Position numbers and translations under genes: made by a program. From the IMG/VR virus record IMGVR_UViG_3300022752_000433, positions 1 to 22,225 of that record: 22,225 bases of DNA. One strand, written 5' to 3'. The DNA comes from a virus. Numbering within the stretch: position 1 is the stretch's first letter; each line of letters begins with the position of its first letter. The notes below the pieces were generated by a model. It was given only the letters and a program-made list of their open reading frames with translations. It did no database searches and was not told the origin of the DNA. Of this stretch, positions 14,078 through 21,000 are shown in pieces.

Positions 14078-14776
14078 ATGCCAACTCCCCTTATTAATTT
14101 TCCTGATGAGCAATCTGAATTGCGTCATGGTTTAAAGGTATTAGTAGATTCTGGTTTAACTTTTGAACAGGTGGAAAAGATTAGAGAAAAGATTGGTTAT
14201 GGCCCCGGTAAAATTCCATATACAAAAGAAACCACTGGTTTAAGACGTTATATGGTGCAAGAATTATTATCAGCTAACTTAAGCAATTCACAAATAGCAA
14301 GAATATTAAAACTCAGCAAAGAAACAGTTAATGCTGATAGACAACAAAACAGAAGTCTATGGACTGAAAGTATATTAAAAAGCCAAGATTGTCATCGCGC
14401 TAGATTATTAAATGAAGCGATGGAATTAAAAGAACAAGCATTATTACAATTTGAAGCTAGTAAAAAACGAACAGTTACAACAGTTTCAGAAAGGGGAGAG
14501 ATGATTACCGTCACAGAATCTGCAGGGGAGTCATCATTCCTTACTGTTGCAAAGAATTGCTTAGAACAACAAGCAAAAGTATTAGGTTTATATGAAATTA
14601 AACCACAAGGTGAAGAAAAGAAAAGTTATAAAAATTTCTTAGATGATATTGCTAAAACCATTGGTGATGTAAAAGAAAAAGAAGAAAAAGCACAAGCTAT
14701 TGATGCAACTTTTACTATAGCTGAAAATGATGAACCAACTGAACCACCATCGGCACTGGCAACTATAAGAATATAA
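14078..14776 (+). CDS. Possible terminase small subunit (helix-turn-helix protein)
   Basis: A 232-residue protein with a helix-turn-helix at about 68-90 (LSNSQIARILKLSKETVNAD) preceded by a helical domain and followed by a long helical part including ARLLNEAMELKEQALLQFEA and FLTVAKNCLEQQAKVLGLYE. An HTH followed by '...A..CL...AK.LGLYE' is typical of small terminase subunits, which recognise the packaging site and form a ring. The C-terminus is acidic and flexible. No large subunit follows in this window, so a DNA-binding regulator remains possible. The start is ATG in ACCATGC context. Confidence 0.55.
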   Translation: MPTPLINFPDEQSELRHGLKVLVDSGLTFEQVEKIREKIGYGPGKIPYTKETTGLRRYMVQELLSANLSNSQIARILKLSKETVNADRQQNRSLWTESILKSQDCHRARLLNEAMELKEQALLQFEASKKRTVTTVSERGEMITVTESAGESSFLTVAKNCLEQQAKVLGLYEIKPQGEEKKSYKNFLDDIAKTIGDVKEKEEKAQAIDATFTIAENDEPTEPPSALATIRI

Positions 14777-16887: not shown

Positions 16888-16910
16888 GCGGGCTTAGGCC
16901 CGCTTTTTTA
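16888..16910 (+). terminator. Intrinsic terminator after the RlpA-like gene
   Basis: A 6-bp GC stem (GCGGGC/GCCCGC) with a TTAG loop followed by six T and ATTT. It lies 20 bases after the stop codon. Confidence 0.88.
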
Positions 16911-17012
16911 TTTCTTTGGATTGAGATCCAGCCAGCTTTGTAAAGAAAAATCACAAACTCCTTGCCAGATCCGGCTCGTCTCGTAATATGCAATTGCCTT
17001 CCTACTGAAACC

Positions 17013-17195
17013 ATGCACGTTCCTTCCATTCGCACCTCCATCGTCCTATTAGGTGCTGCCGCTGGCTTGATTGGCCTGGCCCTAATCGTGCCGGAGCCCC
17101 CAGTACATGATCTCCCTGGTCTGGCCGCCTGTCAACTGCTCCACCCTGATCGCTACTGCCGCCTCACCTATGCCCCTAGTACAATTACACCATAA
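17013..17195 (+). CDS. Small membrane-anchored protein with Cys residues
   Basis: A 60-residue protein, MHVPSIRTSIVLLGAAAGLI, with a membrane segment at about 8-27 and then a Pro-rich and Cys-containing outer part (GLAACQLLHPDRYCRLTYAP). The ATG has ACCATGC context, 103 bases after the terminator at 16910. The gap holds a 5-bp hairpin TGGAT-TGAG-ATCCA at 16916-16929 but no GNRA hairpin like those of later genes. The two Cys, nine residues apart, could form a disulphide outside the membrane. Function unknown. Confidence 0.5.
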   Translation: MHVPSIRTSIVLLGAAAGLIGLALIVPEPPVHDLPGLAACQLLHPDRYCRLTYAPSTITP

Positions 17196-17263
17196 GCAAA
17201 GCTGATCGTTTAAGCCGTTGTTTTTCTGCCCTCCATGGGCAATAATTAATTCACTACCACCAC

Positions 17264-17275
17264 GGGCGCGAGCCC
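17264..17275 (+). promoter_or_regulatory. 5' GNRA hairpin, copy 1
   Basis: GGGC-GCGA-GCCC: a 4-bp stem closed by a GNRA tetraloop, ending 14 bases before the ATG at 17290. An AATAAT box (17241-17246) lies 17 bases upstream. Confidence 0.5.
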
Positions 17276-17289
17276 ACCACCATCCAACC

Positions 17290-17574
17290 ATGGACAAAAC
17301 CACTCTCATCAAAAACTTCATCCATGATGCTGGCAGCAGCATTATCAGCGTGAGCTTCATTAAGCAAAATGGCGAGCAGCGCTCACTACAATTTAATCCG
17401 CTGGATGCACAGGAAATTAAGGGCACCGGCTATGCATTAAAAAATCCTGCCATCATTCGCTGTCGTGATTTCACCATCGCTAAAAACAATGGTGCAGGGG
17501 CATGGAGGTCATTTGATTGTGAGCGTGTGGTGAGCATTAAAGCCAGGGGCAACGTTTTGGAGTTTCAGCCATGA
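17290..17574 (+). CDS. WYL_2/DUF2693-like SH3-fold protein
   Basis: A 94-residue protein, MDKTTLIKNFIHDAGSSIIS, then VSFIKQNGEQRSLQFNPLDA, a central loop, FTIAKNNGAGAWRSFDCERV and VSIKARGNVLEF. The order 'V.F.K.(N/D)G..R...FNPLDA...W.....R....' followed by a final strand resembles the WYL_2 (DUF2693) small beta-barrel family that many phages encode. The role of that family is unknown. It begins ACCATGG behind GNRA hairpin copy 1. Its stop overlaps the next ATG (ATGA, 17571-17574). Confidence 0.6.
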   Translation: MDKTTLIKNFIHDAGSSIISVSFIKQNGEQRSLQFNPLDAQEIKGTGYALKNPAIIRCRDFTIAKNNGAGAWRSFDCERVVSIKARGNVLEFQP

Positions 17575-17756
17575 GCACAGCAGTTGCTACCAAACCAGAT
17601 GCAGAATTTTCGCTATGGGGCCGCGATCCTGCTGGCACATGGCACTGGTTTGGTAATGGTTCCCGCCAGGAACTAGAGTTAAAAGCCAAAGGTTTGAAAT
17701 TTTTATTTACCAATCGATTATGGGAGGTGGTGCCTGGCACTGATCCACCGCATTAA
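17571..17756 (+). CDS. Small protein, unknown
   Basis: A 61-residue protein, MSTAVATKPDAEFSLWGRDP, then GTWHWFGNGSRQELELKAKG and LKFLFTNRLWEVVPGTDPPH. The WG.DP.GTWHWFGNG motif with a following helix and strand suggests a compact alpha/beta fold. It is coupled to the preceding gene by ATGA and is followed after 24 bases by a strong terminator, so the pair forms one two-gene unit. I do not recognise the family. Confidence 0.6.
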   Translation: MSTAVATKPDAEFSLWGRDPAGTWHWFGNGSRQELELKAKGLKFLFTNRLWEVVPGTDPPH

Positions 17757-17780
17757 TTGTTTCAATTAGTAACGCTAATC

Positions 17781-17808
17781 AGCCAGGGGTGGCTTCCTGG
17801 CTTTTTTA
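17781..17808 (+). terminator. Intrinsic terminator
   Basis: A 7-bp stem (AGCCAGG/CCTGGCT) with an 8-nt loop, then a run of T (seven counting the last stem base). It ends the 17290-17756 two-gene unit; an AT box of the next cassette follows after only four bases. Confidence 0.88.
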
Positions 17809-17826
17809 GTGCAATAATTTAGGGAC

Positions 17827-17842
17827 GGAGGCGAGAGCTTCC
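17827..17842 (+). promoter_or_regulatory. 5' GNRA hairpin, copy 2
   Basis: GGAGGC-GAGA-GCTTCC: a 6-bp stem (one G-T pair) with a GNRA tetraloop, ending 19 bases before the ATG at 17862. An AATAAT box (17813-17818) ends eight bases before the stem, so the hairpin should lie at or near the mRNA 5' end. Confidence 0.55.
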
Positions 17843-17861
17843 ACCCACCAACACGAAAACC

Positions 17862-18116
17862 ATGGCCAACACCATTGGAACCATTCGTCGATTCACTGCG
17901 AACGACAACGAAGCGCTCACCACTGCGGCCCTACGATTCGCCAATCGTCATCTCGCAACTGAGGCCGACAGTGACTATACGTGGCATGAATTGCAGCTCC
18001 TCGACGATTCGAGGCTGCGTCGGTTGTGGCAGGCATGTCTATGTAGAGCCCTCCGTGTGCCTGTCTCGGCTGATATCACCGTTGCGCATGGCTACGTTGC
18101 CTATCACGTCCGCTAA
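17862..18116 (+). CDS. Small protein, unknown
   Basis: An 84-residue protein, MANTIGTIRRFTANDNEALT, continuing LRFANRHLATEADSDYTWHE and a basic, Cys-containing middle (RLRRLWQACLCRALRVPV), ending DITVAHGYVAYHVR. ACCATGG start behind GNRA hairpin copy 2. Codons are GC-rich (many GCC, CTC, CGT), unlike the AT-rich genes before 16209. An alternative frame here gives a longer reading, but only this one begins at the consensus start. Family not recognised. Confidence 0.6.
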   Translation: MANTIGTIRRFTANDNEALTTAALRFANRHLATEADSDYTWHELQLLDDSRLRRLWQACLCRALRVPVSADITVAHGYVAYHVR

Positions 18117-18150
18117 TCCTCACTCACCATTCACCATCACCACCACTGTC

Positions 18151-18369
18151 ATGCACCATCCCTCGTACGAAGCCCGCTTAGAGGCCGACCGTCGAGCCCA
18201 GCATTCTGGCTATGGCATCAAGAAGTTTCATTGCGCCGATGGCACCATCCGGTGGGAAGCTTATGGCTGGGAGCGCCTCACTGAGCTGACCACACATACT
18301 ACGTCCTACGGCTTATTTGATCACCAGTGGGAAGCCGAGCAGTATTTCAACAACATCATCAATGGCTGA
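18151..18369 (+). CDS. Small protein, unknown
   Basis: A 72-residue protein, MHHPSYEARLEADRRAQHSG, then FHCADGTIRWEAYGWERLTE and a Tyr/Phe/Trp-rich end (YGLFDHQWEAEQYFNNIING). It starts at ATG 18151 (GTCATG), 34 bases after the previous stop; the gap is a run of CACC/CAT repeats without a hairpin, so it is probably read from the same transcript. Many aromatic residues suggest a folded small domain. Family not recognised. Confidence 0.55.
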   Translation: MHHPSYEARLEADRRAQHSGYGIKKFHCADGTIRWEAYGWERLTELTTHTTSYGLFDHQWEAEQYFNNIING

Positions 18370-18371
18370 TC

Positions 18372-18662
18372 ATGAAATACATTTCTCGCGACGAATTACT
18401 GGCAGTGGGAGCCTCTCTCACCTGGGCTGATGCCCATGTATTCACTGGCAAACTTTATGACCAAGCTTTTCAACAACGTCGCCTCGGTGGCTCTTCCTCG
18501 GAAGGCTTTGCTTCTGGGGAGTTCAATGGAAAGGCTGTGAAATGCTCGATTGTGCCTCGCTGCATGGGCGGCGGGCGCTGGAGCAGCACCACCATTTGGA
18601 CAGTGAACGGCAGGCGCGTAACGCAGAAAAAGCTCATTGATGCCGTTTGTAAAGCTTTGTGA
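18372..18662 (+). CDS. Small protein, unknown
   Basis: A 96-residue protein, MKYISRDELLAVGASLTWAD, then AHVFTGKLYDQAFQQRRLGG, a basic Gly/Ser-rich middle containing two Cys (KCSIVPRCMGGGRWSST) and an end WTVNGRRVTQKKLIDAVCKA. The ATG is two bases after the preceding stop, in ATCATG context. It closes the three-gene unit that starts at 17862 and is followed by the TTCG-loop hairpin at 18668. The middle beta part with a C-terminal helix is all I can describe. Confidence 0.58.
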   Translation: MKYISRDELLAVGASLTWADAHVFTGKLYDQAFQQRRLGGSSSEGFASGEFNGKAVKCSIVPRCMGGGRWSSTTIWTVNGRRVTQKKLIDAVCKAL

Positions 18663-18667
18663 CAAAC

Positions 18668-18683
18668 GGGGGCTTCGGCCTCT
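18668..18683 (+). terminator. TTCG-loop hairpin, weak terminator
   Basis: GGGGGC-TTCG-GCCTCT: a 6-bp stem with two G-T pairs and a UUCG-type loop, five bases after the stop at 18662. No T-run follows directly, so it may stabilise the mRNA end rather than terminate. The next cassette's AT box begins eight bases later. Confidence 0.4.
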
Positions 18684-18707
18684 AATGGCTGTATTGTTCT
18701 TTTGTTC

Positions 18708-18719
18708 GGCAGCGATGCC
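18708..18719 (+). promoter_or_regulatory. 5' GNRA hairpin, copy 3
   Basis: GGCA-GCGA-TGCC: a 4-bp stem with a GNRA tetraloop, ending 14 bases before the ATG at 18734. A TATTGT box (18692-18697) ends ten bases upstream. Confidence 0.5.
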
Positions 18720-18733
18720 CTTTTCTTTTTCCC

Positions 18734-18994
18734 ATGGCAACCATCCCCACTATTCATCTCAACGGCACCGGCTTCACCGATCTGCGCGACGGCTACGCTG
18801 CCGCCTGCGATGCCATCGACAAGGCCATTGATGCCCTGGCCAAGGCGGAGTCAAATGGTCGGGATTTTTATCCACAAGGTCCAGATGCTTTTTACCAGCA
18901 TCGCCAAGAAAGGCAAGCTGCTTTTGACAATCTTTGTGCTGCCCATGCTTACGTGGGCGAGATGCTCATTGGCATTTGCGATCAGCAGCGCTGA
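18734..18994 (+). CDS. Small helical protein, unknown
   Basis: An 86-residue protein, MATIPTIHLNGTGFTDLRDG, then a long helix (YAAACDAIDKAIDALAKAES), an aromatic loop (GRDFYPQGPDAFYQHRQERQ) and a second helix (AFDNLCAAHAYVGEMLIGIC). The two-helix plan with 'HLNG(T)' at the start is a phage pattern that I cannot name with certainty. It starts CCCATGG behind GNRA hairpin copy 3 and ends 29 bases before a strong terminator, making a single-gene unit. Confidence 0.62.
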   Translation: MATIPTIHLNGTGFTDLRDGYAAACDAIDKAIDALAKAESNGRDFYPQGPDAFYQHRQERQAAFDNLCAAHAYVGEMLIGICDQQR

Positions 18995-19023
18995 TTGTAA
19001 AGATAAGCAACAGTGATTGTTCA

Positions 19024-19046
19024 GGGGCTGTTGCCAGCCCCTTTTT
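19024..19046 (+). terminator. Intrinsic terminator
   Basis: A 7-bp stem (GGGGCTG/CAGCCCC) with a TTGC loop followed by five T. The TATTGT box of the next cassette starts four bases later. Confidence 0.9.
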
Positions 19047-19065
19047 GCTCTATTGTTAGTTCAAC

Positions 19066-19079
19066 GAGCCGAGAGGCTC
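19066..19079 (+). promoter_or_regulatory. 5' GNRA hairpin, copy 4
   Basis: GAGCC-GAGA-GGCTC: a perfect 5-bp stem with a GNRA tetraloop, ending 15 bases before the ATG at 19095. A TATTGT box (19051-19056) ends nine bases upstream. Confidence 0.58.
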
Positions 19080-19094
19080 TCCTCCCTCAAAACC

Positions 19095-19469
19095 ATGACT
19101 CGCATCAACCACACTGTTGAACAGTTCACCACCGCCGACGCCTACACCAGCTTCAATGGCCTCAACACCATCCGCCTGACAGTCACCCTGCCCGACTGGC
19201 ACCAGCCCTTCCCCTCTCAGCAGGGTGCTGCTAACCCTCGCCAGCTTGAAATGGTCGGCTTGCTCCACGTAAGCCGCGCTTGGCATATAAATGGTCCCGT
19301 GATGGATCAATGGACTATTTCTACTCTTGGCGGCCCTGTGCAGGTGCCTGCTGGTACCATCATTGAGACAGATGAGCTTCCCGAAGTGTGGGAGGCCAAT
19401 TCCAAGCCTGCTGCCCCCGGCAAAAAGGAATGGTTCGCCTATTCCAATGGTCGCACGGGCTTTTGTTAA
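19095..19469 (+). CDS. Unknown beta-rich protein
   Basis: A 124-residue protein, MTRINHTVEQFTTADAYTSF, then NTIRLTVTLPDWHQPFPSQQ, RQLEMVGLLHVSRAWHINGP, a strand region (WTISTLGGPVQVPAGTIIET) and an aromatic end (KKEWFAYSNGRTGFC). It is probably a small beta-barrel or sandwich. ACCATG start behind GNRA hairpin copy 4; a strong terminator follows 11 bases after the stop, so this is a single-gene unit. No family recognised. Confidence 0.6.
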   Translation: MTRINHTVEQFTTADAYTSFNGLNTIRLTVTLPDWHQPFPSQQGAANPRQLEMVGLLHVSRAWHINGPVMDQWTISTLGGPVQVPAGTIIETDELPEVWEANSKPAAPGKKEWFAYSNGRTGFC

Positions 19470-19479
19470 GTATTGTTAC

Positions 19480-19505
19480 AGGCCCCTTCCCAGGGGCCTC
19501 TTTCG
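19480..19505 (+). terminator. Intrinsic terminator
   Basis: A perfect 8-bp stem (AGGCCCCT/AGGGGCCT) with a TCCC loop followed by CTTTCGTT. The next cassette's TATTAT box starts four bases later. Confidence 0.85.
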
Positions 19506-19523
19506 TTCTATTATTCATTCAAC

Positions 19524-19537
19524 GAGGCGCGAGCTTC
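19524..19537 (+). promoter_or_regulatory. 5' GNRA hairpin, copy 5
   Basis: GAGGC-GCGA-GCTTC: a 5-bp stem (one G-T pair) with a GNRA tetraloop, ending 16 bases before the ATG at 19554. A TATTAT box (19509-19514), five of six to TATAAT, ends nine bases upstream. Confidence 0.58.
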
Positions 19538-19553
19538 ACCATCATCTTCAACC

Positions 19554-19793
19554 ATGACTTCCTCCTTCCGCGAAGACCAGCTTGCCTGGACCATTGCCCA
19601 CTTTTTTTGTGACGCCAAGCCTGGTGACATTCTGAGCCTGCCTGGAGCATCCCTGCTCACCAAAGCCCCTGACGGCAGCTTCTCCCTGACACGTTCTACA
19701 TTCATGGTTTCCCGCCTGGTTGATCCCACCAGCGACAAGGTCGCTGCAACAGTGCTTCGATGGGAAAGGGAAGGGGCGCAGGAGGCGGCATGA
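19554..19793 (+). CDS. Small protein, unknown
   Basis: A 79-residue protein, MTSSFREDQLAWTIAHFFCD, then AKPGDILSLPGASLLTKAPD, FSLTRSTFMVSRLVDPTSDK and VAATVLRWEREGAQEAA. The middle 'PGD.LSLPG.SL' followed by strands suggests a small beta domain. ACCATG start behind GNRA hairpin copy 5. Upstream in-frame codons reach 19473 but cover the terminator and hairpin, so the start at 19554 is secure. The stop overlaps the next ATG (ATGA). Confidence 0.62.
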   Translation: MTSSFREDQLAWTIAHFFCDAKPGDILSLPGASLLTKAPDGSFSLTRSTFMVSRLVDPTSDKVAATVLRWEREGAQEAA

Positions 19794-19960
19794 ACGTTCC
19801 AAACCACCAGCACAACAGCGGCAAGCCTCCCAGGCGGAGGCTCAAGCCACAAGCATTAAGGGCTGCCAAAGCCCGCAGACAAGCCCTTCTCAACCAATTT
19901 AACCATGGAAACCATCAACATCATTGCAATCAGCGCCAAGGGCAAAAGTCGCATTGGTAA
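19790..19960 (+). CDS. Small basic protein overlapping neighbours
   Basis: A 56-residue frame, MNVPNHQHNSGKPPRRRLKP, then QALRAAKARRQALLNQFNHG and a His/Gln-rich end. It is strongly basic with no hydrophobic part. It starts within the stop of the preceding gene (ATGA) and overlaps the first 56 bases of the gene at 19905 in another frame. The coupling argues for it, the low-complexity composition argues against; a nucleic-acid-binding role would only be a guess. Confidence 0.4.
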   Translation: MNVPNHQHNSGKPPRRRLKPQALRAAKARRQALLNQFNHGNHQHHCNQRQGQKSHW

Positions 19961-20102
19961 ACGGCTCACCACTGTCATAGTGGAGCAAAACCACCACGAT
20001 AAACTATTTGTTGTTATTAAAGACAACAATGGTAAAGTTAATCAGTGCCGATGGATTAAAAAAGTAAATGATCCTGATTTTTGTATTATTGATCAAGATT
20101 AA
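19905..20102 (+). CDS. Small beta-rich protein, unknown
   Basis: A 65-residue protein, METINIIAISAKGKSRIGKR, then LTTVIVEQNHHDKLFVVIKD and NNGKVNQCRWIKKVNDPDFC, ending IIDQD. Alternating strands and charged turns suggest a small barrel fold. The ATG has ACCATGG context. Codon use becomes AT-rich again from about 19970 on, unlike the GC-rich cassettes before it. No family is recognised. Confidence 0.62.
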   Translation: METINIIAISAKGKSRIGKRLTTVIVEQNHHDKLFVVIKDNNGKVNQCRWIKKVNDPDFCIIDQD

Positions 20103-20139
20103 TTATTAACAACTATTTCTTTCCCATTGCTTTAAAACC

Positions 20140-20304
20140 ATGATCACCATTCGCACTTATCAAGATGATAATTTTCATGCTGGGGCTACGATAACTAGCT
20201 ATCAGTTTGATGATTATGATTATTACGAAGAAGATGAAAATGAAGAAGAAGATGAATTTTTCGATCCTTCGTCTTCTGCCTTGTCTGCTGCTGAGAGGAA
20301 TTGA
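20140..20304 (+). CDS. Small acidic protein, paralogue of the next gene
   Basis: A 54-residue protein, MITIRTYQDDNFHAGATITS, then YQFDDYDYYEEDENEEEDEF and FDPSSSALSAAERN. The middle is almost only Asp, Glu and Tyr. Its first ten residues match those of the next gene (MITIHTYQDN), so the two arose by duplication. The ATG has ACCATG context; the stop overlaps the next start (TGATG at 20302-20306). Acidic phage proteins often bind host DNA-binding proteins, but nothing specific is shown here. Confidence 0.55.
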   Translation: MITIRTYQDDNFHAGATITSYQFDDYDYYEEDENEEEDEFFDPSSSALSAAERN

Positions 20305-20569: not shown

Positions 20570-20746
20570 AAGGCCCTTAACTTTTTCTTAACTTGTTCTT
20601 AACCTAATCTTAACTTGTTCTTAACCTTTTCTTAACCTATCCTTAACCTATCCTTAACCTGTTCTTAATCCAATCTTAACCTAACCTTAACCTGTTCTTA
20701 ACCTAACTTTAACCTGTTTTTAACTTTCTTAACCTTCCCTTAATCT

Positions 20747-20760
20747 AGTACAAGTGTACT
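20747..20760. promoter_or_regulatory. Cyanobacterial LexA-type box 1
   Basis: AGTACAAGTGTACT matches RGTACNNNDGTWCB at every position and extends to a 16-bp palindrome (TAGTACA-AG-TGTACTA). It interrupts the CTTAAC array between the units at 20739 and 20764. Confidence 0.65.
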
Positions 20761-20842
20761 ATCCTTAACCTTTTCTTAACCTTCTCTTAACCTATCCTTA
20801 ACTTAACCTTTCCTTAACCTTTCCTTAAACTGTTCTTAACCT

Positions 20843-20856
20843 GGTACAAATGTACT
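20843..20856. promoter_or_regulatory. Cyanobacterial LexA-type box 2
   Basis: GGTACAAATGTACT also fits RGTACNNNDGTWCB at every position. It lies 96 bp from box 1, centre to centre, and again sits in a 25-bp interval (units at 20835 and 20860). Confidence 0.65.
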
Positions 20857-21000
20857 ACTCTTAACCTATGTTTAACCTGCCCTTAACTTAATCTATCCTT
20901 AACCTACTCTTAATCTAATCATAATTTAATCCATCCTTAACTTAAGCTTAACTAGTTCTTAACTTAACCTGCTCTTAACCTTTCCTTAACTTAAAGCTAT

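Follow-up and report, generated by a model that had tools for sequence, protein, structure and literature searches.

Why should five small genes that encode unrelated proteins each be preceded by a short hairpin with the same kind of loop? This question is raised by a viral sequence of 22,225 bases, the entire IMG/VR virus record IMGVR_UViG_3300022752_000433 (hereafter the window), in which an original prediction had placed five hairpins with GNRA tetraloops ahead of five genes. We confirmed the positions, stems and loops of all five hairpins (Table 1) and re-measured their distances to the downstream ATG as 14, 19, 14, 15 and 16 nucleotides (nt) for copies 1 to 5 in order. As described below, the window hairpins are members of a real multi-copy element reaching far beyond the window, and the evidence argues for a common, hitherto undescribed RNA tag where these messages begin.

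Within the window, a hairpin with a GNRA loop, a stem of at least 4 base pairs (bp) and at most one G•U pair is present within 45 nt upstream of 5 of the 36 likely gene starts, exactly these five, whereas about 0.5 would be expected by chance (1.4% of all plus-strand 45-mers contain a qualifying hairpin). RNA folding returned the same hairpins as the minimum-energy folds of the predicted leaders. As a rule no T run follows the five window hairpins, so they do not qualify as intrinsic terminators. The five downstream proteins show no obvious mutual similarity, as had been claimed, and none of them has a Pfam match.

To what extent the element occurs elsewhere was analyzed in related environmental phages, comprising 34 relatives collected via the primase-helicase and 68 contig stretches collected via the hairpin pattern. 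These contain more than 120 distinct copies of a module, located ahead of many unrelated open reading frames (ORFs), in which the terminator of the previous gene is followed by a TATTGTT −10 box, TTCAAC, a G(A/C)GA hairpin of 4–8 bp, a G-poor linker of 14–20 nt and the ATG. A hairpin-free promoter pattern used as query still retrieved relatives with the hairpin. Paired stems are found at the same position in related phages, one of the points on which the original prediction had proposed that it should stand or fall. The cultured phage S-CBS4 keeps a diverged module with the box TATAGTT, GCGA loops, and the stems GGCCG/CGGTC and GGGCCG/CGGTCC, which lie near record positions 67590 and 68729. 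Additional GCGA/GAGA hairpins are seen in the S-CBS4 genome (L129) near starts lacking a standard −10 box (38663, 39829, 40502, 41676 and 42138); among these, some are possibly copies that have diverged or lack annotation; the one at 42138 suggests an unannotated plus-strand gene overlapping gp100. A homologue of the copy-3 protein is encoded by Synechococcus phage S-H1, in which neither scan nor model revealed a convincing hairpin copy, and a blastn search of cultured phages with the short consensus gave chance-level matches only. To look for a host origin, 84,980 genomes were scanned with a pattern, cyanobacterial host genomes being covered by one exact pattern only; this returned 21 scattered matches, about as many as chance would give for a pattern this long and none of them cyanobacterial; plasmid relatives of the copy-4 protein were not found.

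The original prediction held that the stems differ while their pairing is kept, and this could be extended to the family as a whole. In an alignment of 54 sequences, 97.7% of the cells are paired, compared to 72% after shuffling and 26–55% when the partners are slid, and two-sided changes (62 versus 20) are present at all five pairs. Since the rows of this alignment were partly picked for pairing, cleaner evidence comes from 2.9 million contigs scanned with the pattern TATTGTTNNNTCAACGNNNCGNNAGNNNC, which leaves loop positions 2–3 and three stem positions per side free: the three free stem pairs are complementary in 47 of 48 unique copies. The scores given by the covariance model R1 to the window and S-CBS4 copies are those of training sequences, and hence no independent support. 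At the pair second from the loop, G–C is found in 70 and C–G in 56 copies, and the third and fourth pairs from the loop are often G•U; these swaps and the common G•U pairs place the constraint on RNA rather than on a DNA operator. Homologues within the copy-3 gene family alone display the stems GGCG/CGCC, GAGGC/GCCTC, AAGGC/GCCTT and GGGCC/GGTCC.

The loop, in contrast to the stem, had been described as either GAGA or GCGA, which holds almost entirely across the family. Three less biased tests were run against circular counting of loops. Among the primase-selected relatives, GCGA (10) and GAGA (8) lead all tetraloops in promoter–hairpin–ORF context, the others being scattered with at most three each. 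When sites were chosen by promoter and ORF alone, 100 of 103 tetraloop hairpins carried GAGA or GCGA, and all 48 unique copies from the 2.9-million-contig scan have a GAGA (28) or GCGA (20) loop. A GCAA loop is a rare exception, seen among hairpins in other sequence contexts. GAGA loops are closed by a C–G pair in 51 of 52 cases, and GCGA loops by C–G (53), G–C (11) or A–U (11).

The position of the hairpin within the transcript can be approached through its spacing. The AT box claimed ahead of the hairpins was recovered at promoter-like spacing in four of the window copies and is atypically placed in copy 1 (Table 1). Across the family, TATTGTT is near-invariant in 126 copies and is followed by TTCAAC. 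The end of the −10 hexamer lies 8.9 nt from the stem (standard deviation 1.3), whereas hairpin and ATG are spaced less strictly (16.4 nt, standard deviation 2.5); given its tighter spacing to the promoter, the hairpin is expected to lie at the 5′ end of the mRNA, as originally proposed. Assuming that +1 is the seventh nucleotide after the −10 hexamer, 2–4 unpaired nt would precede the stem in 109 of the 126 copies. Promoterless, operon-internal genes have no hairpin, as seen at 17571 and 18372 in the window and for the homologue gp103 of S-CBS4. In four relatives (L004 3419, L006 2903, L048 2710 and L093 1913), TATTGTT is followed by GATTGATTGTTATTC at hairpin-free cassette sites, which offer a natural comparison.

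The linker between hairpin and ATG is rich in C, T and A (6% G), and in none of 127 copies does it contain a Shine-Dalgarno-like motif (AGGA, GAGG or GGAG). Such a motif is likewise missing at 24 of the 31 non-hairpin starts of the window. Its absence is thus not special to the hairpin genes, as Shine-Dalgarno sequences are rare throughout the window, and the suggestion that the hairpin replaces one gains no specific support.

When the records of S-CBS4 and of near-full-size relatives were scanned in their entirety, up to seven copies per genome were seen, with strong copies nearly all on one strand within a single stretch of a few kilobases, ahead of small genes mostly without known families. 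In 102 of 127 copies a separate terminator-like repeat is located upstream of the hairpin. A conserved motif, approximately TTTGTGAAGC[AT]TTGTNACA, occurs at or after the preceding stop codon and just before the terminator (18657 and 19473 in the window), and in related loci roughly half of the hairpins are preceded, at a distance of about 50 nt, by a motif of this type. TTGTNAC is held by 66 of 127 copies, compared to about 0.02 expected per copy, and it looks as if the whole intergenic unit, not the hairpin alone, is repeated.

Taken together, the sequences themselves establish a hairpin family with a near-strict loop, covarying stems, a fixed −10 spacing and restriction to one cassette and one strand per genome. 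Our best explanation, held tentatively and with belief and doubt nearly in balance, is that these hairpins form one leader family in which a 5′-terminal hairpin blocks 5′-end-dependent decay and the G(A/C)GA loop is read by a factor. Transcription would begin at an A located 2–4 nt before the stem, and each short, mostly single-gene mRNA would thus start with the hairpin, which could hinder both 5′-end sensing by host RNase E and 5′–3′ digestion by RNase J, while the unstructured linker of 14–20 nt would be left open as a landing track for the ribosome. The loop would in addition serve as a recognition site for a factor of phage or host origin, either protein or RNA, since selection keeps G(A/C)GA rather than any stable tetraloop. 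Cyanobacteria possess RNase E and an essential 5′–3′ exonuclease, RNase J (PMC10989914), and in the cyanophage P-SSP7 an antisense RNA was reported to shield phage transcripts from RNase E (PMC9692554), so that a need of cyanophage transcripts for protection from this enzyme is not without precedent.

Several points weigh against this explanation. Protection alone would not require GAGA or GCGA, since UUCG or GAAA should do equally, and no loop-binding factor was identified, no systematic search having been made. The transcript start is a prediction from the −10 spacing, and copy 1 is missing a well-spaced −10 box. In addition, a few degenerate copies exist (L048 759, L050 2830 and L103), and the copies share descent, so that their counts are not independent events. 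A more far-reaching proposal, which we regard as possible but distinctly doubtful, is that the G(A/C)GA hairpin acts as a 5′ tag on the RNA for a dedicated reader, whereby the unrelated genes would form one post-transcriptional regulon under a stem-independent loop code.

Loop identity kept while stems drift, and a hairpin shared in a regulon-like manner by many unrelated genes, would also be expected if the hairpin were an operator of translation or stability through which one RNA-binding protein, encoded by phage or host, turns the entire cassette on or off, end protection being secondary; small arginine-rich phage peptides are classic binders of short GNRA-fold hairpins. We consider this rather unlikely, as the spacing is fixed to the promoter rather than to the start codon, binding at 14–20 nt from the ATG would not by itself obviously block the start codon, and no candidate binder was found, although no systematic search was made.

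Three further explanations are less likely. In antitermination of the nut/boxB or put type, the nascent hairpin would modify RNA polymerase to pass the intergenic terminators, and a short 5′-proximal hairpin with a GNRA-type loop, together with a terminator-like repeat preceding approximately 80% of the copies, would suit such a role. It appears improbable, however, because a separate promoter and element for each gene makes readthrough unnecessary and a boxA-like sequence cannot precede the hairpin if the hairpin starts the transcript; nor was an N-like protein identified, though no search aimed at one was made. The repetition of the entire intergenic unit, including the terminator and the TTGTNAC close to the stop of the previous gene, and the finding that homologous genes have different copies in different phages could alternatively indicate that the modules have no expression function and are homologous junctions through which recombination shuffles small genes between phages, but homology alone does not keep pairing through double changes, which renders this reading very improbable. 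Least probable is a signal at the DNA level: an inverted repeat at +1 that keeps a constant spacing to the −10 box might be an operator for a dimeric repressor, yet stems that vary freely with compensatory changes and many G•U pairs around a fixed unpaired centre are the opposite of conserved half-sites.

A megablast search with the window revealed no near-identical cultured phage. Its gene content resembles that of Synechococcus phage S-CBS4 (host CB0101), largely in the same order, with a common series of virion proteins, endolysin, HNH endonuclease, thyX, dCTP deaminase and exonuclease that continues with a Sak annealing protein, a RecA-like primase-helicase and then small genes. The primase-helicases of the two are 57% identical, and the enzyme is encoded by all seven near-full-size relatives examined (68–74 kb). 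S-CBS4 gp086 (L129 36649–37380) carries the record annotation 'Rnase E', a doubtful label since its positional counterpart in the window (14078–14776) gives only a weak helix-turn-helix (GerE) match below the cut-off. The window further contains an iteron-like tract of about 420 bp (20580–21000), lying between the cassette of small genes and a gene of the GP88 family and dense in short repeats of the TTAACC/CTTAAC type, with 31 occurrences of TTAAC in 460 bp around it compared to 26 across the remaining window.

Table 1. Hairpin copies of the window with their promoter-like boxes, upstream repeats and downstream genes (R1, covariance model)
Feature	Position	Strand	Basis or remark
AT box AATAATT, atypical, ~16 nt before hairpin copy 1	17241..17247	+	Sequence; spacing off family mode
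Hairpin copy 1, GGGC-GCGA-GCCC	17264..17275	+	Sequence; R1 20.4 bits (training sequence)
Gene behind copy 1, 94 aa, without Pfam match	17290..17574	+	Family and hairpin module also in L015 (MDKTTLIKSF...)
Terminator-like inverted repeat and T run before copy 2	17781..17807	+	Sequence
AATAAT −10-like box, copy 2	17813..17818	+	Sequence
Hairpin copy 2, GGAGGC-GAGA-GCTTCC, 6 bp, one G•U	17827..17842	+	Sequence, folding
Gene behind copy 2, 84 aa, without Pfam or PHROG match	17862..18116	+	
TATTGTT −10 box, copy 3	18692..18698	+	Sequence; near-invariant in 126 copies
Hairpin copy 3, GGCA-GCGA-TGCC	18708..18719	+	Sequence; R1 34 bits (training sequence)
Gene behind copy 3, 86 aa	18734..18994	+	Homologues in at least 20 relatives have the module, with differing stems
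Hairpin resembling an intrinsic terminator, with T run, ahead of copy 4	19024..19046	+	Sequence
TATTGTT −10 box, copy 4	19051..19057	+	Sequence
AAC, predicted transcript 5′ end, copy 4	19063..19065	+	Predicted from −10 spacing
Hairpin copy 4, GAGCC-GAGA-GGCTC	19066..19079	+	Sequence; R1 43 bits (training sequence)
Gene behind copy 4, 124 aa	19095..19469	+	Homologues (NHTVEQ...) in relatives have the module
Terminator-like inverted repeat before copy 5	19480..19499	+	Sequence
TATTATT −10 box, copy 5	19509..19515	+	Sequence
Hairpin copy 5, GAGGC-GCGA-GCTTC	19524..19537	+	Sequence; R1 41.5 bits (training sequence)
Gene behind copy 5, 79 aa	19554..19793	+	Similar S-CBS4 gene gp104, also hairpin-led

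Overall, a multi-copy family of structured leaders was found from sequence alone in siphoviruses of cyanobacteria that form a widespread group, and it is directly testable because the cultured phage S-CBS4 on Synechococcus CB0101 has it. The family bears on how phage messages survive in picocyanobacterial hosts that have both RNase E and RNase J; a leader that is short, modular and loop-specific would be a useful expression part, and a reader of the hairpin, if there is any, would represent a new RNA-binding activity.

How does this element relate to known systems? The window gave no match to Rfam 15 at the gathering threshold, nor did positions 16900–20200 at E-values up to 5, and no published description of a comparable GNRA or 5′-end hairpin phage leader was found in a search of the literature outside subscription journals. 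The cyanophage structured RNAs manA, wcaG and PhotoRC-II in Rfam derive from T4-like phages or marine samples (PMC2864571) and are similar in being structured leaders before cyanophage genes; no Rfam model, however, matches the element described here. In the halovirus HF2, repeated intergenic modules with archaeal promoters precede several virus genes; the portion of that report cited here describes no covarying RNA hairpin leader such as the one in the cyanophage module (PMC8707807). The SAS and ESAS elements of cluster K mycobacteriophages likewise occur in multiple copies upstream of the start codons of unrelated genes, ESAS with inverted repeats; SAS is a 13-bp primary-sequence motif of the GGGATAGGAGCCC type with a Shine-Dalgarno core adjoining the start codon, and an RNA hairpin in ESAS is, according to the authors, little supported, as departures do not keep the pairing (PMC3203893). 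The cyanophage element shares with these the repetition before unrelated phage genes, but its linker has no Shine-Dalgarno core at the ribosome-binding position in any of the 127 copies, and unlike ESAS its stems covary strongly and it is located at the promoter and predicted 5′ end.

Among RNA hairpins proper, the lambdoid boxB of nut sites is a short phage hairpin with a GNRA-like pentaloop; it comes together with a boxA, and a genome has one or two such sites. The cyanophage hairpin is also short and has a GNRA-type loop, but this loop is a tetraloop and many transcripts are predicted to begin with it, with no boxA upstream in the RNA, where approximately AAC alone separates the predicted start from the stem. 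Stem-loops of the ompA type lie within a few nucleotides of the transcript start and are expected to hinder 5′-end-dependent decay; the cyanophage hairpin is predicted at a similar distance and may act in a similar way. To our knowledge, the known stabilising stem-loops at 5′ ends belong to single leaders and follow no set loop sequence, whereas one loop rule is common to more than 120 leaders of these phages.

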